IMG/VR virus record: IMGVR_UViG_3300010399_000068
Location: 1 to 32,888 of that record
DNA: 32,888 bases
Reading direction: 5' to 3' (one strand)
From: a virus
Below, one piece after another: positions 4,164 to 30,798 of the stretch. Below the pieces are notes generated by a model. That model was not told the DNA's origin. It saw only the letters and a list, made by a program, of their open reading frames with translations, and made no database searches. A program made the translations under genes and the position numbers. The first letter of the stretch is position 1. Every line of letters starts with the position of its first letter.

Positions 4164-4673
4164 ATGGACGACGACGGCTGGCTGACGAAGGCGGAAGCGG
4201 CGGCCCAGCTCGGCGTCGCCGAGCGCACGGTCGAGCGCCTGGCGGCGCGAGGCGCCCTGACGGCGCGTATGCGTCCCGGGTTCCCGACCATGTACAACCC
4301 CGCCGACGTCTCCAGGGAGGCGGCAGCGGCCCGTACCGTTCACCGGGCGGCCATTTCTCTGGTCGACCGGAACGGCAACGGGCACGACCCACGCACCGCG
4401 CTCGAGCGGGCAGCCTACGCGCCGCCCGGCGACGAGCTGCTCGGGCCAGCGCTTCGGTTCCTCGAGCGGCTCACGGCGTTGCTGCCAGAGGGTCCGACAG
4501 GTCCGACAGGTCCGACAGCGCCGCTGTTCCTGACGGTCGAGGAGGCGGCACTCGAGTCGCATTTGCCGGCGCGCGAGCTGCGTCGGTTCATTCGCGAAGG
4601 GAAGCTCGTGCCGGTATGCGGCCGCAGCGTGCGGACCTGGCGGATCCGCCGGCGCGACCTGGAGGCGCTGTAA
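4164..4673 (+). CDS. double helix-turn-helix (excisionase/MerR-like) DNA-binding protein
   Basis: 169 residues from ATG 4164. Residues 5-55 (WLTKAEAAAQLGVAERTVER, then a short wing ending in YNPADV) match the helix-turn-helix/excisionase family fold. A second, similar unit occupies residues 122-169 (LFLTVEEAALESHLPARELR, with RRFIREGKLVPVCG and a closing RRRDLEAL). Between them is a linker with GPTGPTGPT (110-118) encoded by three exact 9-base repeats. Two such domains would suit binding to paired or repeated sites. It is probably a transcription or replication-initiation type regulator; a recombination directionality factor is an alternative. Confidence 0.7.
   Translation: MDDDGWLTKAEAAAQLGVAERTVERLAARGALTARMRPGFPTMYNPADVSREAAAARTVHRAAISLVDRNGNGHDPRTALERAAYAPPGDELLGPALRFLERLTALLPEGPTGPTGPTAPLFLTVEEAALESHLPARELRRFIREGKLVPVCGRSVRTWRIRRRDLEAL
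4491..4517 (+). repeat. three tandem copies of GGTCCGACA
   Basis: Exact 9-base direct repeats at 4491-4499, 4500-4508 and 4509-4517, in frame and encoding Gly-Pro-Thr three times. The same 9-mer is at 4132-4140, there as part of a palindrome. Tandem in-frame repeats could be simple replication slippage. The matching palindrome upstream of the same gene makes an iteron or operator reading possible. Confidence 0.55.
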
Positions 4674-4872: not shown

Positions 4873-5220
4873 GTGGAGCAGTGGGCCGCGATCGCCGAGT
4901 CGCCTGCGTACGAGGTCAGTTCGTGGGGCCGCGTCCGCCGCGGTGAATTCGAGGTCGCGTCCTGGCCCAACGCCAAGGGCTATCACCTGGTCAATCTGGA
5001 AATCGACGGGCGGCCGCGTCTGCGGTACGTGCACCGGCTCGTCTTGACGGCGTTCCGCGGCCGCGACGTGCGCCGTCCACTCGCCAACCACGACGACGGC
5101 CAGAAGGGCCGCAACGTGCTCGAGAACCTGGCTTGGACGACGCCCTCCGCCAACGTGCTGCATGGGCGTCGAGTGCGGCTCGAGCGTGAGTACGGACAAG
5201 GGTCACTTTTCGCACTCTGA
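4873..5220 (+). CDS. HNH homing-type endonuclease (NUMOD4-HNH_3)
   Basis: 115 residues from GTG 4873. Residues 2-23 (EQWAAIAESPAYEVSSWGRV) are a clear NUMOD4 module, the DNA-binding unit of free-standing homing nucleases. It is followed by a YHLVNLEIDG hairpin and the HNH_3 core: VHRLVLTAF (first His), LANHDDGQKGRNV (central Asn-His), NLAWTT (closing motif). The family makes site-specific DNA breaks that spread the gene. It sits beside a NrdR-like zinc-ribbon gene, a pairing repeated 500 bases later. A stem-loop lies over its start. Confidence 0.85.
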   Translation: MEQWAAIAESPAYEVSSWGRVRRGEFEVASWPNAKGYHLVNLEIDGRPRLRYVHRLVLTAFRGRDVRRPLANHDDGQKGRNVLENLAWTTPSANVLHGRRVRLEREYGQGSLFAL

Positions 5221-5259
5221 GCGCAGCAGTTGCCGCGCACCGACGTCCTCGGATGCAAA

Positions 5260-5278
5260 GTGCCACGTGTTTTGGCAC
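5260..5278. other. short inverted repeat between nuclease and zinc-ribbon genes
   Basis: GTGCCA (5260-5265) and TGGCAC (5273-5278) form a 6-bp stem with loop CGTGTTT. It lies in the 108-base gap after the HNH gene. No T-tract follows, so it is not a convincing terminator. It could be an operator or a weak transcript hairpin. Confidence 0.3.
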
Positions 5279-5328
5279 GCTCGTATACGGCTCGGCCCGA
5301 TGGCCCGTACCGTGCAGTTGCCCCATGC

Positions 5329-5595
5329 ATGGACGTCGAACACAACAAGGGGAGTACGGCTCAGCGCGCGCTGTATAAAGGTCCCGACCGCCGGTGCAGG
5401 CGCGACCCCGGCCGCCGTGCGTCCGACGCCCTGCCGAAGGTGCCCTGCCCACATTGCGGCTGCAGCGTCAGCACGGTGAAGAACTCGAGGCCGGTCCTCT
5501 CGAGGAACGGCGTTCGCCGGCGCCGCGTGTGCGACGACTGCGGCGCGCGCTTCACGACCATCGAGATGATCGACTCCGGTCCGCGCCTCCCGTAA
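5329..5595 (+). CDS. NrdR-like zinc-ribbon protein, copy 1
   Basis: 88 residues from ATG 5329; the frame is open further upstream to TTG 5230, so the start is uncertain. Residues 36-77 contain VPCPHCG, NSRPVLSRNGVRRRR, CDDCGARFTTIE, which is the layout of the NrdR N-terminal zinc ribbon (CPxC, SR..., RRRR, CxxCG.RFTT.E). The ATP-cone domain of true NrdR, about 100 residues, is absent, so this is a stand-alone DNA-binding ribbon and not the full repressor. A close paralogue lies at 6082-6336. It may bind DNA as a regulator, target unknown. Confidence 0.7.
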   Translation: MDVEHNKGSTAQRALYKGPDRRCRRDPGRRASDALPKVPCPHCGCSVSTVKNSRPVLSRNGVRRRRVCDDCGARFTTIEMIDSGPRLP

Positions 5596-5620
5596 CCTCC
5601 CGCACCTACCACATCTAGCA

Positions 5621-5636
5621 CTACCACCACTGGTAG
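5621..5636. other. small hairpin after zinc-ribbon gene
   Basis: CTACCA (5621-5626) pairs with TGGTAG (5631-5636) around CCAC, within the 106-base gap before the second HNH gene. The gap is relatively pyrimidine-rich on this strand. No T-run follows the stem, so termination is doubtful. Confidence 0.25.
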
Positions 5637-5701
5637 CAGGGCAGTCGTCGCTCTCTGCCACGCTGTTCCTCGCTCGCGGTTCCACCAACACCTGACTAGG
5701 T

Positions 5702-6085
5702 ATGCCCACGGCTCCGTTGCGGCCTTGTGCCGAGCGCGGCTGCGGCGCGCGTGTCTCCTCCGGCAGATGTCCCGAACATCAACGCGCCCGAGACCGCGAG
5801 CGTGATCGATTCATCGACGCCCATCGTCCGAGCGCCCACCGGCGCGGATACGACCGTCGATGGCAGAAGGCGAGTCGGCTGTTCCTGCAGCGCAATCCGC
5901 TCTGCGTGGACTGCACAGCCGACGGGCGAATCGGGGCGGCAACCGTGGTCGACCACGACGTGCCCCACAAGGGCGATGAGGGGCTGTTTTGGAACGAAGC
6001 CAACTGGCGATCACGCTGCAAGACACATCACGATCGGAAGACAGCGACGCAGGACGGCGGCTTCGGCCGGCCGCACGGTCGTTGA
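5702..6085 (+). CDS. HNH endonuclease of the packaging-associated (HK97 gp74-like) type
   Basis: 127 residues. The N-terminus has a C4-like knuckle set (PCAERGCGARV, GRCPEH). The signature RGYDRRWQKASRLFLQRNPL with CVDC is followed by VVDHDVPHKGDEGLFWNEAN and SRCKTHHDRKT, giving the HNH metal site (DHD, N, H) and a zinc-binding CxxC...CxxHH frame. Small HNH proteins of this kind sit near terminase genes in many phages, where they assist the terminase in processing DNA. Here it lies about 7 kb upstream of terS, so the packaging role is inferred from family. Start ATG 5702 follows a weak AGG. Confidence 0.85.
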   Translation: MPTAPLRPCAERGCGARVSSGRCPEHQRARDRERDRFIDAHRPSAHRRGYDRRWQKASRLFLQRNPLCVDCTADGRIGAATVVDHDVPHKGDEGLFWNEANWRSRCKTHHDRKTATQDGGFGRPHGR

Positions 6086-6336
6086 CGTCGCGCCCCTATC
6101 GTCGTCGCGCCAGCGGCGCGAACACCGACGACCTCGCCCCGAAGGTGCCCTGCCCGCACTGCGGCGGCAGCACCAGCCTCGTCACCAATTCGCGTCCCGT
6201 CATCTCGCGCAACGGCGTGCGGCGACGACGTGAATGCAGTGAGTGCCACGGCCGCTACACCACCATCGAGATCCTCTACGACACCGCAGCTCCGACGAAT
6301 CGCGAGCTCACCGCGGCGATGTCCGCACCCGTGTAA
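6082..6336 (+). CDS. NrdR-like zinc-ribbon protein, copy 2
   Basis: 84 residues if TTG 6082, overlapping the HNH stop (TTGA), is used. The start is not certain; an ATG at 5989 would overlap the nuclease. The core PKVPCPHCG, NSRPVISRNGVRRRR, CSECHGRYTTIE is strongly similar to copy 1, and 17 bases around the first CxxC are identical between the two genes. As in copy 1, the ATP-cone of NrdR is missing. The two ribbon genes each follow an HNH nuclease, suggesting duplication of a nuclease-ribbon pair or repeated capture. Confidence 0.7.
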   Translation: MTSRPYRRRASGANTDDLAPKVPCPHCGGSTSLVTNSRPVISRNGVRRRRECSECHGRYTTIEILYDTAAPTNRELTAAMSAPV

Positions 6337-6670: not shown

Positions 6671-7072
6671 ATGCCACGCGCGCAGTCACGGCGCCGCCGA
6701 TCGGCGCCACCACCATCACCACCGACACCGCGTCCCGATCGCTGGGTGGTCACCGGTGATCCAGGTGCAGGCAAAAGCACGTGGGTCGCGCAGCAACGGA
6801 GGCCAGGCGACATCGTGTGGGACGTCGACGCCATCGCGCACGCCATCGCCCACGAGCCGCACTATCCGCGTTCGTCCGCGACGCTCTCGCTGCTGTCCGC
6901 GCTGCTCGAGTCGATGGTGCGCTGGCTCGAGGTGATGACGAACGTGCGCGTCTTCCTCATCGTCGGTAACGCCGACGCAGCCATCGCGATCGCCGCGCGC
7001 ATTCGCGCGAACGTTCTTCAGTTGCCGTCGACGTACGCCGTCGATCGGCGTTCACCTTCATCGAAATCGTAA
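6671..7072 (+). CDS. P-loop NTPase, AAA/kinase-like, 133 aa
   Basis: After a disordered Arg/Pro/Ser-rich N-terminus (residues 1-22) comes WVVTGDPGAGKSTWVAQ, a textbook Walker A, then GDIVWDVDAIAHAI, a strand ending in an acidic residue as in phage nucleoside/polynucleotide-kinase-like P-loop proteins, and a later strand VRVFLIVGNAD. It is shorter than a full kinase and lacks a visible lid region. Proteins with this GDPGAGKST plus D-V-W-D layout are common between HNH and terminase genes in phages. The substrate is unknown. Confidence 0.75.
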   Translation: MPRAQSRRRRSAPPPSPPTPRPDRWVVTGDPGAGKSTWVAQQRRPGDIVWDVDAIAHAIAHEPHYPRSSATLSLLSALLESMVRWLEVMTNVRVFLIVGNADAAIAIAARIRANVLQLPSTYAVDRRSPSSKS

Positions 7073-11447: not shown

Positions 11448-12245
11448 GTGCTGCTTGACCTGCGGTCGCTCGAAGAAGCGTCAGGGACGCAGTATGCGCA
11501 GTCTCTGGGTGGTGTGCTCGGTAGCTCCGGCGGACTCGCGAAGGGTCCGTCGAAGCTGCTGGCCGGCACGCTGACGTCCGCCGGTGCACTGGCCGCGATC
11601 AAAATCGCGCTCGTCACGGTGGCGGGCACGCTGACGTCGAGCGGGACGCTCATCAAGCAGACCGGGAAGGTCCTGTCCGGGACGCTGACGTCGGCCGGCG
11701 CGCTCGTTCGCCAGGGGCAGAAGACGCTGGCCGGGACGCTGTCGCCGGCGGGCGCGCTCCTGAGGCAGACGAACAAGCTGCTCGCCGGCACGCTGACGAC
11801 CAACGGGGCGCTGGCGGCCGCGAAGGTCGCCCTCAAGTCGGTCGCCGGCACCCTGACCTCGAGCGCCGCGCTCGCGCGACAGACCGGCAAGGTGGTCGCC
11901 GGGAGCCTCGCCTCGAGCGGCGCGCTCGTCAGGCAGACCGCGCACCTGCTGACCGCGACCCTCACGAGCAGCGGCGCCGTCACCAAGCAGACGCGGAAGG
12001 CGTTCGCGGGCACCGTGACGGCGATCGCCGCCGTCGCCAAGCAGACGTCGCGGTTGGTCGCCGGCACGCTGACGATGGCCGGCGCCGCCGTCGGCAACAT
12101 CCTGGCGTTCCTCCTCATCTCGTTTGAGCTGACGACGTTCAACGCGCAGGTGAAGCGCGCGGTGCGCTGGGCCGCGGTGACCAGTCAGACCGTCGCGAAG
12201 TCCGTCGGGCTCACGCGGCAGAAACCCTTCGACTTGGAGCGGTAA
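11448..12245 (+). CDS. repeat-rich fibre-like protein, 265 aa
   Basis: From GTG 11448. Residues 37-214 are about ten tandem units of 18 residues (two of 20) with consensus LLAGTLTSSGALVRQTGK. Each begins with [LV]xAGTLTS and ends in a basic QTxK/R. A hydrophobic segment (AVGNILAFLLISFELTTF, about residues 213-230) and a basic tail follow. Such units suit a repetitive stalk or shaft. The repeat is also visible at DNA level (54-base period), so copy number may change by recombination. The stop overlaps the next start (TAATG). Confidence 0.6.
   Translation: MLLDLRSLEEASGTQYAQSLGGVLGSSGGLAKGPSKLLAGTLTSAGALAAIKIALVTVAGTLTSSGTLIKQTGKVLSGTLTSAGALVRQGQKTLAGTLSPAGALLRQTNKLLAGTLTTNGALAAAKVALKSVAGTLTSSAALARQTGKVVAGSLASSGALVRQTAHLLTATLTSSGAVTKQTRKAFAGTVTAIAAVAKQTSRLVAGTLTMAGAAVGNILAFLLISFELTTFNAQVKRAVRWAAVTSQTVAKSVGLTRQKPFDLER
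11556..12090 (+). repeat. tandem 54/60-base coding repeats
   Basis: About ten adjacent units of 54 bases (two of 60) inside the gene at 11448-12245, encoding AGTLTSSGAL-type repeats. GGCACGCTGACGTC or close variants recur at the start of many units. They are divergent enough to have accumulated over time, but similar enough for slippage or recombination. Confidence 0.6.
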
Positions 12246-13306: not shown

Positions 13307-13861
13307 ATGCCACGCCCCCGGAAACCGACCGCGCAGCACGAGCTCGACGGCACCTTTCGCGCCGATCGGCACGCCGGCGAACCCGAATACCCCGACGGCG
13401 CGCCGCCGCGGCCCGCAAGCGTCGACCTGTACCCGGCCGCGCGCGAGGCGTGGGACTTCTACGTCGCCGAGATGACGAAGTCCGGGGTGCTGACCGTCGT
13501 CGACGGGCCGGTGCTCGCGCATCTCTGCCTGCTGCGCGCGATCGAAGAGGACCTCGTGCAGCAGCTGCACAACGCGGGCTCGATGGTCGTCGTGAAGGAG
13601 CTCGCCGGCGACGGCGAGGAGCCCTCGGGCGGCCAGGCCTCGATGCAGCGGGCGATCACCGTCTCGGTGCACCCGCTCGCGAAAGAACTGCGGTCGCTGA
13701 CGGCCGCCATCCGCGGATGCGCCGCGGACCTTGGATTGACTCCCGTGAGCCGTGGCCGCGCGGGAACCAGTGGACACGGGAACGGGACCAGTGGCGAAGC
13801 CAAACCCACGAGCAAAGTCGCGCAGCTCCAAGCCGCCGGCCGACAGCTCCGCGCCGTCTAG
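13307..13861 (+). CDS. terS: terminase small subunit, P27 family
   Basis: 184 residues starting four bases after the fibre gene. The N-terminus is basic (PRPRKPTAQHELDGTFRADR), the middle is helical (YPAAREAWDFYVAEMTKSGV, LCLLRAIEEDLVQQL), and HPLAKELRSLTAAIRGCAADLGLTPVSRGR is a hallmark end of P27-type small terminases. It recognises phage DNA for packaging and loads the large subunit. It directly precedes, and overlaps, the large terminase gene, confirming the assignment. Confidence 0.85.
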   Translation: MPRPRKPTAQHELDGTFRADRHAGEPEYPDGAPPRPASVDLYPAAREAWDFYVAEMTKSGVLTVVDGPVLAHLCLLRAIEEDLVQQLHNAGSMVVVKELAGDGEEPSGGQASMQRAITVSVHPLAKELRSLTAAIRGCAADLGLTPVSRGRAGTSGHGNGTSGEAKPTSKVAQLQAAGRQLRAV

Positions 13862-15683
13862 CGCGACGGTGACGACGTGGGATGCGTTCACGCATCGCAC
13901 CGACCTCTACGCCCGACGTGTGCTCGGCGACGCCGCCGCCGGCGAGCCGATCGTGGCCGGTCCGTACGTGCGCCTCGCCTGTCAGCGGCATCTCCGCGAT
14001 CGCGAGCTCGCGGCGGCGGCCGCGGCGTGTGGTCACCCCAAAGGATTCTGGTTCAACGAGGTCGCCGCCGACCACATCATCAATTTCTTCGAGCAGGTCC
14101 TCCGGCTGCCCGATACGCGTGACGACGCCGGCCAGGCGCTGCCGTTCCTCCTCGCCCCCGCGCAGGACTTCATCCTCGGCTGCTGCTTCGGCTGGACCAA
14201 GATCGACGGCTATCGTCGTTTCGTAACGGCGTACATCGAGATGGGCAAGGGGAACGGGAAGACCCCGCTCATCGCCGGTATCGGGCTCTATGGCTTGGTG
14301 ATGGACAACGAGTACGCCGCGCAAATCTTCTGCGCGGCGACGTCCGAGGACCAGGCGCTCCTGCTGTGGAACGACGCGAAGAACATCGTCGAGGCCTCGC
14401 CCGAGCTCGCGTCAATCCTCAAAGTGCGGGAAGCGAAGGGGGCTCACAACATCAGCTACCCGGAGCTGAAGTCGTTCTTCCGGCCGTTCACCAAGGAACA
14501 GGCGAAGAAGTCCGGCACGCGGCCGCATATGGGCCTCATCGACGAGCTCCACGAAGATGCCAGCGGCGACGCACCGAAGAAGGTCCGCGCGGGCACGAAG
14601 GGACGCAAGCAGCCGCTGATCTTCGAGATTACGAACTCGGGATTCGATCGCACGACCATCTGTTGGCAGCACCGGGAGCATTCCCGCAGGCTCCTCGAGC
14701 GTGCCGTCGACGACGACGCGTGGTTCGCCTACGTCTGCGCGCTGGACGGTACCTACGGCGAGGAGGGCGCTGACGATCCGCTGACCGACAAGACGTGCTG
14801 GGTCAAGGCGAATCCACTCCTCGGCGTGTCCATCCGCGAGGACTACCTGCAGCGCCAGGTCGAAACGGCGATCAATATCCCTGCGGAGACGAACACCGTC
14901 CTTCGCTTGAACTTCTGCGTGTGGACGCAGGCCATCTCGAGATTCTTCGACCTCCTGAAGTGGGCCGGCTGCAGCGCCTACGTCAGCGACCAGGACCTCA
15001 AGACACCCGGCGTGGTGTGCTACGCCGCGCTCGATGCGGGCCAGACCGACGACTTCACGTCGCTGGTAGGCCTGTTCCTCCTTCCCGACGGCCGCAAAGC
15101 GGTCCGCTGCAAATTCTGGTTGCCTCAGGCGGCGCTCGAGAAATACCCGGAACGTCCCTACGACCAGTGGAAGAAGGCCGAGCTCCTCACGATTACCGAA
15201 GGCGACGTCATCGACTACGACGTCGTCGAGGAAGACGTGTACCAAGCCTGCCGGACGTGGGGCGCGAAGGAACTCGCGTATGACAAGCGGTTCGTCGAGC
15301 AACTCGCGCAGCACCTGGTCGGCAAGGGGATCGATTGCACGGACCAGCCACAAGGTTTCTACCTCAACGAAGGCCTGGGCTTTGTTCGTGATGCCGTGCA
15401 GTCCGCGCAGCTCTGTCACGGCGACCACGCGGTCCTGACGTGGATGGCGAGCAACATGGTCGTGCGGCACGGGCCCAACAAGATGATCCGGCCGGACAAG
15501 GATGCCGCGAAAGACAAGATCGACGGCATCGTCGCCCTCGTCATGGCCGCGCAGCGCGCGTCCGTCGCGCCGAAGCCGGCACAGACGGTCTATGCGACCC
15601 GAGGCGCGTATGTCATCGGCCGCGCCGGCAGCCTGACGCGGCAACCGGTCGACCGCGCCGCGGCCGAATCACCAAAGGAGTAA
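13791..15683 (+). CDS. terL: terminase large subunit (ATPase-nuclease)
   Basis: 630 residues from GTG 13791, overlapping terS by 71 bases; GTG 13752 or GTG 13869 are alternative starts. The ATPase has Walker A GKGNGKT (152-158) and Walker B GLIDELHE (D251-E252). The C-terminal RNase-H-like nuclease shows ALDAGQTDDFTSL (D415) and the closing DKIDGIVALVMA (D578). Motor and nuclease together cut and pump the genome into preformed heads through the portal encoded downstream. Length is typical for the HK97-type family. A small basic N-terminal extension precedes the conserved part. Confidence 0.92.
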   Translation: MAKPNPRAKSRSSKPPADSSAPSSATVTTWDAFTHRTDLYARRVLGDAAAGEPIVAGPYVRLACQRHLRDRELAAAAAACGHPKGFWFNEVAADHIINFFEQVLRLPDTRDDAGQALPFLLAPAQDFILGCCFGWTKIDGYRRFVTAYIEMGKGNGKTPLIAGIGLYGLVMDNEYAAQIFCAATSEDQALLLWNDAKNIVEASPELASILKVREAKGAHNISYPELKSFFRPFTKEQAKKSGTRPHMGLIDELHEDASGDAPKKVRAGTKGRKQPLIFEITNSGFDRTTICWQHREHSRRLLERAVDDDAWFAYVCALDGTYGEEGADDPLTDKTCWVKANPLLGVSIREDYLQRQVETAINIPAETNTVLRLNFCVWTQAISRFFDLLKWAGCSAYVSDQDLKTPGVVCYAALDAGQTDDFTSLVGLFLLPDGRKAVRCKFWLPQAALEKYPERPYDQWKKAELLTITEGDVIDYDVVEEDVYQACRTWGAKELAYDKRFVEQLAQHLVGKGIDCTDQPQGFYLNEGLGFVRDAVQSAQLCHGDHAVLTWMASNMVVRHGPNKMIRPDKDAAKDKIDGIVALVMAAQRASVAPKPAQTVYATRGAYVIGRAGSLTRQPVDRAAAESPKE

Positions 15684-18784: not shown

Positions 18785-18985
18785 GCTACCAGATGCGGTA
18801 CAGCGCGGTCCTCATGGTCGCCGTACCGTAGAACACGTATTCAACGGCGCGCCGGCGCGGTGCTCTCTCGAGTGGCCGTCCGACGCGCGACGCAACACGC
18901 GGGTTTCTGTCGAAGCGCGCGGTTGTTGGTCGACTGCACCGGCGCACTCCGGCCAGTCGACCTGCAGCCGCGCGCTTTGTCTTTG
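18785..18985 (+). ncRNA. repeated structured RNA element, copy A (upstream of major capsid gene)
   Basis: No gene is present in 18773-19010. The element starts with the 20-mer GCTACCAGATGCGGTACAGC, identical in copy B at 30129. CTAC (18786-18789) pairs with GTAG (18828-18831), and GGTAC (18797-18801) pairs with GTACC (18823-18827), leaving CAGATGC as a conserved bulge. GCTCTCTCGAG (18862-18872) can form a CTC-TCTC-GAG hairpin, followed by the shared GTCCGACG (18878-18885). The shared block 18905-18926 is the 5' arm of a long terminal hairpin closing at 18977 with a T-rich tail. Position before the capsid gene suggests a regulatory leader; mechanism unknown. Confidence 0.6.
18913..18985 (+). 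terminator. long terminal hairpin with T-rich tail, copy A
   Basis: AAGCGCGCGG (18913-18922) pairs perfectly with CCGCGCGCTT (18968-18977). The helix continues through TTGT/GCAG by wobble pairs, then GGTCGACTG (18928-18936) pairs with CAGTCGACC (18954-18962), and CCGG/CCGG closes the loop. TTTGTCTTTG follows. This is intrinsic-terminator geometry 25 bases before the capsid start codon, so if active it must be read through or regulated for capsid production. Confidence 0.5.
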
Positions 18986-19010: not shown

Positions 19011-20309
19011 ATGGACCTGGTCAAGCACCTGAAGGGCCTCAAGCAGAAGAGGACCGACGCGCTTCTCGAGCAGGAGAGGCAGCTCGCCACCGCCGCGCAG
19101 CGCGGCAACGGGCTCACCGACGACGAGAAGCGGCGCGACGACGAGCTGAGCGCCTCGGTCGAGGAGCTCGACGCGGAGATCGCGCGCTATCAGCGCGTCA
19201 TCGGCCGCGACCGTGAAGCGACGCAGCCGCCCGCGCGTGACGACCGGTCCGCCGCGTTCAACGGCGATCGCCGCTGGGGCTACACCGACATCGCGCAGTT
19301 CGCGCGCGACGTTCGCGTGGCGTGCCAGCCCGGCGGCCGCATCCCGGAGCGCCTGGCCGCGATGCAGGCGGCGCTGCAGGCGGCGCCGTCGAACTACATC
19401 CAGGAGGCCAGCGGCGCCGACGGCAGCGGCTACGAAGTGCCGCCGCAGTTCAAGGCCGACATCTTCGAGCTCGTGTTCACCGACGCGGGCCTGCTCGAGG
19501 AAGTCGACAGCGAGCCGACCAATTCCAGCTCGGTCGAGATGGATGCGGACGAGACCACGCCGTGGGGCGCGAGCGGCGTCCAGGCGAAGTGGCGCTCGGA
19601 AGTCGGCCAGATGACGCCGTCGAAGCCGGACACCGACACGCGCCTGGTCAAGGTGCACGACATGTACGCGTTCGTGCTGGCCAGCGAGAACCTGATGAAC
19701 GACGCGCCTCGCCTGGCCTCGCGCATTACCAAGAAGGCGGCGGATGCGATTCGCTACAAGGCGAACGACGCCATCGTCAACGGCACCGGCGCGGGCCAGC
19801 CCCTCGGGTTCATGAACGGGCCCAGCCTCGTCACGCAGACCAAAGAGGGCGGCCAGGCGGCCGCCACGTTCAACGCGAACAACGCCGCCAAGATGTTCGC
19901 GCGACTGCTGCCCGCAGGCCTCGGCCGCTCGGCGTGGTACGTCAACTCGGACGTTCTGCCGCAGCTCTTCACGATGACACTCGGGCAGAACTCCGTGTTC
20001 GTGCCGCCGGCCAGCGGCTTCATCGGAGCGCCGGGCGGTTTCCTGCTCGGACGGCCGGTGCGCCCCGTCGAGCACTGCCAGACGCTCGGCACCAAGGGCG
20101 ACGTCGCGCTCATCGACCCGAAGGGCTACTACGCCCCGCTCAACGGCGGGCTGCAGTACGCCGAATCGATTCACCTCTATTTCGATTACGGCCTGAAGGC
20201 GTTCCGCTGGACCTTCCGCATGGGCGGACAGCCGTACCTCTCGGCCGCGGTGAGCCCCGCGAAGGGCAGCACCACGAAGAGCCATTTCGTGGTCATCGAG
20301 AACCGGTAA
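19011..20309 (+). CDS. major capsid protein, HK97 fold
   Basis: 432 residues; RBS CAGGGAGA precedes ATG 19011. Residues 1-75 are a charged coiled-coil segment (LKQKRTDALLEQERQLATAA, VEELDAEIARYQRVI), the delta/scaffold-like domain expected to be removed by the protease. Core landmarks are SGYEVPPQFKADIFELV, DMYAFVLASENLMNDAP with KANDAIVNGTGAGQPLGFM, ALIDPKGYYAPLNGG, and FRMGGQPYLSAAVSPAKGST. It forms the icosahedral shell. The 5' untranslated region contains the duplicated RNA element, and the stop codon lies in the loop of a hairpin. Confidence 0.93.
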   Translation: MDLVKHLKGLKQKRTDALLEQERQLATAAQRGNGLTDDEKRRDDELSASVEELDAEIARYQRVIGRDREATQPPARDDRSAAFNGDRRWGYTDIAQFARDVRVACQPGGRIPERLAAMQAALQAAPSNYIQEASGADGSGYEVPPQFKADIFELVFTDAGLLEEVDSEPTNSSSVEMDADETTPWGASGVQAKWRSEVGQMTPSKPDTDTRLVKVHDMYAFVLASENLMNDAPRLASRITKKAADAIRYKANDAIVNGTGAGQPLGFMNGPSLVTQTKEGGQAAATFNANNAAKMFARLLPAGLGRSAWYVNSDVLPQLFTMTLGQNSVFVPPASGFIGAPGGFLLGRPVRPVEHCQTLGTKGDVALIDPKGYYAPLNGGLQYAESIHLYFDYGLKAFRWTFRMGGQPYLSAAVSPAKGSTTKSHFVVIENR

Positions 20310-30129: not shown

Positions 30130-30333
30130 CTACCAGATGCGGTACAGCCGATCGCGTGGTCCGGGCGTACCGTAGAGACTCCTGACCAACAGGCGGCGTC
30201 GGGCGCCGGCGCTCTCTCGAGCGCGGGTCCGACGAGCGCGCAACCAGCGGCCTTCTATCGAAGCGCGCGGTTGTCCGTCCTCGGGCGTGTGTGAACCACG
30301 TGAACGCCGAGGCGCACAGCTGCGCGCTTTTTT
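30129..30333 (+). ncRNA. repeated structured RNA element, copy B (after hub gene)
   Basis: No gene is present in 30130-30357. The 20-mer GCTACCAGATGCGGTACAGC starts on the last base of the hub stop codon. CTAC (30130-30133) pairs with GTAG (30172-30175) and GGTAC (30141-30145) with GTACC (30167-30171), again leaving the CAGATGC bulge. GCGCTC-TCTC-GAGCGC (30209-30224) is a perfect 6-bp hairpin where copy A uses wobble pairs. GTCCGACG (30227-30234) and the block 30253-30274 match copy A. A long terminal hairpin with a T6 run ends the element 24 bases before the next start codon. Not recognised as any RNA family I know. Confidence 0.65.
30261..30333 (+). terminator. intrinsic terminator hairpin of RNA element copy B
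   Basis: AAGCGCGCGGTTGT (30261-30274) pairs over 14 positions with ACAGCTGCGCGCTT (30316-30329), two of them G-T wobbles. CCTCGG (30279-30284) pairs with CCGAGG (30307-30312), with three more pairs beyond a bulged G. T6 at 30328-30333 follows the GC-rich stem. This is a strong intrinsic terminator by geometry. It fits the end of the hub transcript, or the end of a small RNA. Confidence 0.72.
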
Positions 30334-30357: not shown

Positions 30358-30798
30358 ATGAACCTGATTTACAACGAGGCGAAGAAGCAGATCCTCAACG
30401 GCTCCATCGACCTCGACACGAGCACGTTGAAGGTGATGCTCGTCAAGAGCACCTACACCGCCGACGCTGACCACGCCGCGATCGACGACGGCACCGGCGG
30501 CGACCCGCAGAGCCACGAAATCAGCGTCAGCGGCTACGCCCGGCAGGCGCTGGCCAGCCGCGTCGTCGACAAGGACAACACGGGCGACTTTGGCTACCTG
30601 GACGCCGACGACACGGTCTTTGCGTCGCTCGCGACCGGCGAGACGATTGGCGGCGCCATCATCTTCAAAGACACCGGCGTCGATTCCACCAGCATCCCGA
30701 TTGCCTTCTACGACCTGACGGACACACCGACCAACGGCAGCACCATCACGGTCCAGTGGGCGGCCGTCGCCAGCGGCGGCGTCATCAAGGCGGCGTAA
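30358..30798 (+). CDS. phage structural protein, 146 aa
   Basis: MNLIYNEAKKQILNGSIDLD, TLKVMLVKSTYTADADH, SGYARQALASRVVDKDN, GGAIIFKDTGVDSTSIPIAF and STITVQWAAVASGGVIKA form a beta-sandwich phage protein often found beside fibre genes. The first start available after RNA element copy B is ATG 30358; only weak purine-rich sequence precedes it. No enzymatic residue is evident. Probably a tail-tip or fibre-base component. Confidence 0.65.
   Translation: MNLIYNEAKKQILNGSIDLDTSTLKVMLVKSTYTADADHAAIDDGTGGDPQSHEISVSGYARQALASRVVDKDNTGDFGYLDADDTVFASLATGETIGGAIIFKDTGVDSTSIPIAFYDLTDTPTNGSTITVQWAAVASGGVIKAA

Follow-up and report, generated by a model that had tools for sequence, protein, structure and literature searches.

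Zinc ribbons and HNH nuclease domains are joined in one protein in the zinc-ribbon HNH nicking endonucleases, the phage Gamma HNH type. The zinc ribbon of the repressor NrdR lies at its N terminus, and its mode of DNA binding has been described for S. coelicolor NrdR (PMC9110341). By that account, the grip on the phosphate backbone is provided by residues R12, R26-R29 and R37, and D15 and R17 read the bases (PMC9110341). Binding was reported to be abolished by R17A, whereas the D15A protein bound strongly and less selectively (PMC9110341). Pairing between ribbons forms the DNA-binding unit, and each NrdR box is kinked by nearly 90 degrees (PMC9110341). Another small zinc protein of phages, Ogr, is described with the cysteine pattern CX2CX22CX4C (PMC3931495). 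Here we analyse a viral locus in which two genes for stand-alone NrdR-type zinc ribbons lie next to two HNH genes.

Gene organization of the locus

The DNA analysed, referred to below as the window, is a complete IMG/VR record (IMGVR_UViG_3300010399_000068) of 32,888 bases with a G+C content of 64-71%. Matches to terminase, to a portal (phrog_12, PF04860) and to a major head protein (phrog_10; gene start at 19011) indicate that this uncultured phage is tailed. A search for near-identical DNA in annotated phages gave none for window positions 1-25000. The features considered below are as follows.

4873..5220, + strand: HNH1, free-standing NUMOD4-type HNH endonuclease (phrog_959/phrog_59)
5329..5595, + strand: ribbon 1, stand-alone NrdR-type zinc ribbon, 88 aa from ATG (PF22811, 50.2 bits)
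5621..5636, no strand: CTACCA-CCAC-TGGTAG, perfect 16-bp palindrome between ribbon 1 and HNH2
5702..6085, + strand: HNH2, packaging-type (HK97 gp74-like) HNH (phrog_144, E 3e-33)
6082..6336, + strand: ribbon 2, stand-alone NrdR-type zinc ribbon, 84 aa from TTG (PF22811, 51.8 bits)
6671..7072, + strand: P-loop protein, AAA_33-like (under the Pfam cut-off), matching part of phrog_4581
13307..13861, + strand: small terminase, TerS (phrog_83, E 8e-19)
13908..15605, + strand: large terminase, TerL, matched part of ORF 13752-15683 (phrog_9, E 2e-141 and 6e-139)

The order of a NUMOD4-type HNH, ribbon 1, a gp74-type HNH and ribbon 2, given in a preliminary description made from the sequence alone, was found with all four genes in place, and the two nucleases indeed belong to different HNH subtypes. 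HNH1 matched phrog_959 (E 9e-22) and phrog_59 (E 8e-20), and stayed under the Pfam thresholds for NUMOD4 (22.1 bits against 23.4) and HNH_3 (18.1 against 24.8). One relative of HNH1 was found, on a contig without a ribbon; HNH1 is probably an incidental mobile gene and an incidental neighbour of the ribbons. HNH2, assigned by phrog_144, scored 15.5 bits with Pfam HNH, under the cut-off of 21.4. Among 13 loci of HNH2 relatives read by eye (L021 and L022 lie outside this set), 11 were closely followed by genes resembling TerS and/or TerL, the exceptions being L011 and L024. HNH2 in the window is flanked on both sides by ribbon genes, and TerS follows after about 7.2 kb of other genes. The family phrog_4581 combines an HNH part with a P-loop part; HNH2 corresponds to one half of it and the P-loop gene at 6671-7072 to the other. 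In L014 this fused form is a single gene upstream of TerS-TerL. The annotation of phrog_4581 as 'terminase small subunit' looks like a misnomer.

Two further features of the window were observed. The gene at 11448-12245 contains GCCGGCACGCTGAC three times, its translation is repetitive, and it probably encodes a fibre-like protein. An element of about 140 nt occurs twice with a mean column identity of 76%, at 18786-18925 a short distance before the major head gene and at 30130-30275 a short distance before the gene at 30358. Its perfectly conserved blocks, CTACCAGATGCGGTACAGC and CGTACCGTAGA, pair in the predicted fold of both copies, the loops differing. With z scores of −0.3 and −1.1 the folding energies are ordinary, no match to an Rfam family passed its threshold, and the copy at 18786-18925 partly overlaps a listed ORF. 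The sole exact match elsewhere to an 18-mer of the element was in L112, inside a coding frame.

Identity of the ribbon domain

As the preliminary description had proposed, both small proteins are NrdR-type zinc ribbons; each is complete, and the scores of 50.2 and 51.8 bits lie well over the PF22811 cut-off of 27.2. The lack of an ATP-cone, also noted there, was confirmed in that neither ribbon gave a Pfam ATP-cone match at E <= 1. Both have the CxxC...CxxC and RRRR elements of the NrdR N-terminal zinc ribbon, with the cysteine pattern CX2CX24CX2C. Against the NrdR equivalog TIGR00244 they reached 37.0 and 41.7 bits, compared with a cut-off of 124.65, and covered positions 2-45 of 147. PF22811 was matched by all 35 ribbon proteins tested, and the top PHROG families matching the ribbons are without assigned function.

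An AlphaFold model of ribbon 2 had a mean pLDDT of 77, rising to about 90 or more in the ribbon part. With this model, NrdR chains ranked first in Foldseek, and VIA-align gave Z scores of 5.5-6.6 for NrdR entries, the best unrelated fold reaching 4.5. Superposition on four of the NrdR entries, with Z 5.8-6.6, gave 1.6-1.8 A over 45 residues.

The start codons of both genes are uncertain. Since the similarity between the copies begins 6 nt upstream of an in-frame GTG (5440 in ribbon 1, 6145 in ribbon 2), and several relatives begin directly at the ribbon (MKCP...), the N-terminal extensions are possibly untranslated, and translation may in fact begin at 5440 and 6145. If ribbon 2 starts from TTG at 6082, it would overlap the HNH2 stop by 4 nt (TTGA).

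Duplication of the ribbon genes

The ribbon repeat extends over 141 nt (5434-5574 and 6139-6279) with 73% identity. The 17 identical bases pointed out before (CCGAAGGTGCCCTGCCC) were confirmed, and the longest match in 200 codon-shuffled pairs was 12. The two proteins share 33 of 44 core residues, and between the genes dN was 0.20 and dS 0.90, giving a dN/dS of about 0.23. Each ribbon is the closest to the other, with 72% identity over 40 core positions; with the next sequence, ribbon 1 reaches 61% and ribbon 2 reaches 55%. In the tree, which is largely unresolved and whose bootstrap did not converge, the two form sister rows with support of 95/90. As the copies are mutually closest and sisters in the tree, these comparisons indicate that the ribbon gene was duplicated within this lineage; purifying selection acts on both copies.

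The preliminary description had suggested a duplicated regulator split by nuclease invasion. The duplication holds, but a split gene was rejected, as ribbon 1 and ribbon 2 are each complete and under purifying selection. Nor are two HNH-ribbon pairs a duplicated unit, since HNH1 and HNH2 come from different families.

Tandem ribbons were detected elsewhere in two of 34 other contigs: in G032 the two matches are about 0.7 kb apart, and in G047 the second match is partial and near the contig end. L040 carries two ribbon genes about 0.5 kb apart (4181-4417 and 4920-5234), the first of them more divergent (34.0 bits). We infer that ribbon 1 occupies the position seen in relatives, upstream of an HNH gene, and that ribbon 2 is the extra copy. 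The location of ribbon 2, between HNH2 and a P-loop gene that are fused elsewhere, suggests that it was the later arrival.

Association of ribbons with HNH genes

By profile search of IMG/VR with five ribbons, 33 ribbon loci were collected, and a wider profile added one (L105). HNH genes were counted with phrog_144, phrog_59 and PF01844, leaving out the duplicates G025, G039 and G046 and retaining both near-copies G017 and G018. An HNH gene was located within 1.5 kb of the ribbon in four of the 30 non-duplicate viral contigs (G022, G026, G030 and G044), compared with 2.36 expected by random placement (P 0.17). Thus HNH-ribbon neighbours do recur in other phages, but not above chance, and an HNH-ribbon travelling unit was rejected as a candidate.

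The idea that the ribbon travels with HNH genes is mostly unsupported also for the reason that in three of these four contigs the HNH belongs to an HNH-TerS-TerL block, the HNH being followed by TerS and TerL in G022, G026 and G044 (in G044 as seen through its near-copy G046). A strong phrog_9 terminase was present in exactly these ribbon contigs, together with G046 and the window. An HNH gene was near the ribbon in all three phrog_9 contigs against one of 27 others (Fisher P 0.001). In the reverse search, of 16 contigs fetched with HNH1 or HNH2 two had a ribbon match at E <= 0.01, which exceeded the cut-off in one contig, and none had a ribbon within 2.5 kb of the HNH gene (0/16). The close HNH genes of the phrog_9 contigs and the few ribbons in HNH contigs show that HNH presence tracks terminase type, not the ribbon. 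HNH2 would then be the first gene of an HNH-TerS-TerL block, which would explain its adjacency to the ribbons.

Position of ribbons relative to the terminase

TerL was located by phrog_2 or phrog_9. In 11 of 21 non-duplicate contigs the ribbon had the orientation of TerL and lay no more than 5 kb upstream of it, compared with 3.98 expected (P 0.0002). The expectation assumes uniform placement, and clustering upstream of TerL may be a general property of small early genes. This count leaves out G025, G035 and G044, the TerL match of G044 being at the opposite end of its contig. Among contigs of 15 kb or more the number was 7 of 17 (2.07 expected, P 0.002), and with phrog_2 alone, leaving out the duplicates G025 and G039, it was 9 of 19 (3.17 expected, P 0.001). 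The ribbon was not near TerL in 10 of the 21, and was on the opposite strand in four. The window itself, with a ribbon-TerL gap of 7.6 kb, falls outside the 5-kb class. At the other extreme, the ribbon gene and the start of TerL have a 4-nt overlap in L041.

The neighbours of the ribbon include several regulators. A NusG-type antiterminator lies directly 3' of the ribbon in L034, a phrog_36 regulator overlaps the ribbon stop in L052/L054, and further neighbours in this region are a phrog_36 regulator in L036 and a DnaA-type helix-turn-helix protein in L045; in L038 the ribbon is fused to a helix-turn-helix. Mutual exclusion between ribbon and late regulator was considered and not seen, as phrog_36 was detected in four of 35 contigs (one weakly), each with a ribbon. 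Since a dedicated regulator co-occurs with the ribbon in L036, L052 and L054, the ribbon need not be the late activator. A different architecture was observed in L025 (4851-5225), where the ribbon protein has an additional N-terminal CxxC...CxxC segment, which we take to resemble the zinc segment preceding some HNH nucleases. Taken over all contigs, the ribbons appear to belong to a scattered phage family that tends to the early/late boundary, just upstream of packaging genes.

DNA-contact residues and possible sites

Conservation of the DNA-contact residues was examined for 34 distinct ribbons including both window copies, using S. coelicolor NrdR numbering; 33 of 34 loci entered the alignment, L055 being left out because the motif did not frame it. 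R27, R28 and R37 were present in 34 of 34 ribbons, a conservation that is partly selected around R37 and TT.E, which were included in the pattern used to find the loci. Position 29 was Arg in 31 and Lys in three, R17 was retained as Arg in 32, and R26 in 24. The remaining contacts were more variable: D15 was Asp in 17, Glu in eight and Asn in four, and R12 was Arg in 11. Both window ribbons have Asn at D15, and R12 is absent from both. From these residues, the ribbons are likely to be DNA-binding and probably DNA-bending proteins with their own or a relaxed specificity.

An NrdR box was not found within 3 mismatches across the window, and a sigma-70 promoter scan detected none near the ribbons. 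The window contains 20 perfect 6-4-6 inverted repeats, and the palindrome at 5621-5636 is among them. When up to 3 mismatches were allowed, it had 11 matches, compared with 3.4 expected and at most eight in 100 shuffles; three of the 11 overlap at one place, some others are inside genes, and two are part of an unrelated repeated element. The palindrome could, speculatively, be a candidate operator.

Possible roles of the ribbons

Because similar lone ribbons lie near packaging genes elsewhere, small gene-control or DNA-bending proteins are likelier than HNH partners. We tentatively favour, at somewhat less than even confidence, the reading that the ribbons are duplicated stand-alone DNA-binding proteins, probably regulating late or packaging genes. 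As in NrdR, the ribbons would pair through a ribbon-ribbon interface. The pair would bind and kink a short site, with specificity altered or relaxed by the replacement of D15 by Asn, and would regulate a late or packaging transcript.

An unlikely alternative gives the ribbons an accessory role in packaging, in which the ribbon pair bends DNA at or near cos and assists HNH and terminase in site choice or cleavage. The tight upstream linkage to TerL in 11 of 21 contigs, extending to overlap in L041, is consistent with such a role, as are the nearly 90-degree bend at each box described for NrdR ribbons (PMC9110341) and the stimulation of cos cleavage described for the HNH2 family (PMC9410871). 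In addition, every ribbon phage in which a strong phrog_9 terminase was detected has ribbon and HNH close together. However, ribbons were far from TerL in 10 of 21 contigs, 26 of 30 had no HNH within 1.5 kb, and 14 of 16 HNH contigs carried no ribbon.

A rather improbable reading is that the ribbons are neutral hitch-hikers: small genes, mobile or in decay, that pile up in the early region and have no fixed role. Their variable tails and neighbours, among which no conserved partner gene was found, would fit this, but the dN/dS between the copies and the strict conservation of cysteines and DNA-contact arginines in the 34 sequences (found partly via the motif) argue against it.

A further role, which we consider improbable, is mimicry of NrdR: a lone ribbon would occupy host NrdR boxes or pair with host NrdR, and thereby derepress ribonucleotide reductase genes. 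Ribbon-ribbon pairing does form the NrdR DNA-binding unit (PMC9110341), and R17 and most backbone arginines are retained. Nevertheless, position 15 is Asn in both copies and variable across the family, no NrdR box within 3 mismatches was seen in the window, and the location near packaging genes would be left unexplained. Equally improbable is an IHF-like architectural factor: free of nucleotide sensing and of the D15 specificity brake, the lone-ribbon family would kink DNA at a late promoter or cos, bending it for HNH-terminase or for late transcription.

Least probable is that each ribbon is the DNA-targeting subunit of its adjacent nuclease, a split zinc-ribbon HNH enzyme, for although both HNH-ribbon pairs are adjacent in the window, HNH2 and ribbon 2 may be translationally coupled through the TTGA overlap, ribbons lie near HNH in L030, L034 and L052/L054, and fused zinc-ribbon HNH nickases reportedly exist (Xu and Gupta are said to have described them in 2013), HNH genes within 1.5 kb (4/30) are not above chance, 14 of 16 HNH-fetched contigs lack a ribbon, and the two HNH genes are from different families.

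Comparison with known systems

The window ribbons have the four cysteines, RRRR, R17, R37 and TT.E in common with the NrdR zinc-ribbon domain (PF22811; PDB 7p37, 9fxk and 9gex), but unlike NrdR they are without ATP-cone and nucleotide sensing, and R12 and D15 are replaced. The Ogr/Delta late activators of P2-like phages (PF04606) are likewise small single-zinc phage proteins. Ribbon 1 scored 24.0 bits with PF04606, under the cut-off of 26.3, and ribbon 2 was not listed, the NrdR profile being far stronger; PF04606 was matched by seven of 35 ribbons at E <= 0.01. In spacing, too, the CX2CX24CX2C of the window ribbons differs from the CX2CX22CX4C of Ogr. HNH2 is of the same family (phrog_144) as the packaging HNH of the HK97 gp74 type, yet lies about 7.2 kb from TerS. 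In contrast to the zinc-ribbon HNH nickases, ribbon and HNH in the window are in separate reading frames, and the ribbon is of the NrdR type.

Searching annotated phages with the ribbons gave 18 and 21 records, and of five examined (H16, H6, H10, H9 and H3), the first three were plain NrdR-length genes. A genome collection scan gave five loci. Three of them (L107-L109) encode NrdR-length proteins whose tails look ATP-cone-like by eye, L111 encodes a stand-alone ribbon, and L110 could not be framed by the motif. Earlier annotation has named phage genes with this ribbon 'NrdR', an example being ORF 28 of S-SRP02 (PMC8790148), which may be a lone ribbon or a longer protein. In the open-access literature we found no description of stand-alone NrdR-type ribbons upstream of terminases.

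Where a phage gene is named 'NrdR' solely for its zinc ribbon, it cannot encode an NrdR repressor, because the nucleotide-sensing half is missing. The tempting HNH-ribbon association is corrected here as weak. By its conserved DNA-grip and its tendency to lie upstream of the terminase, the ribbon family provides candidate small phage regulators or DNA-bending proteins, of which the window ribbons are a natural paralogue pair.
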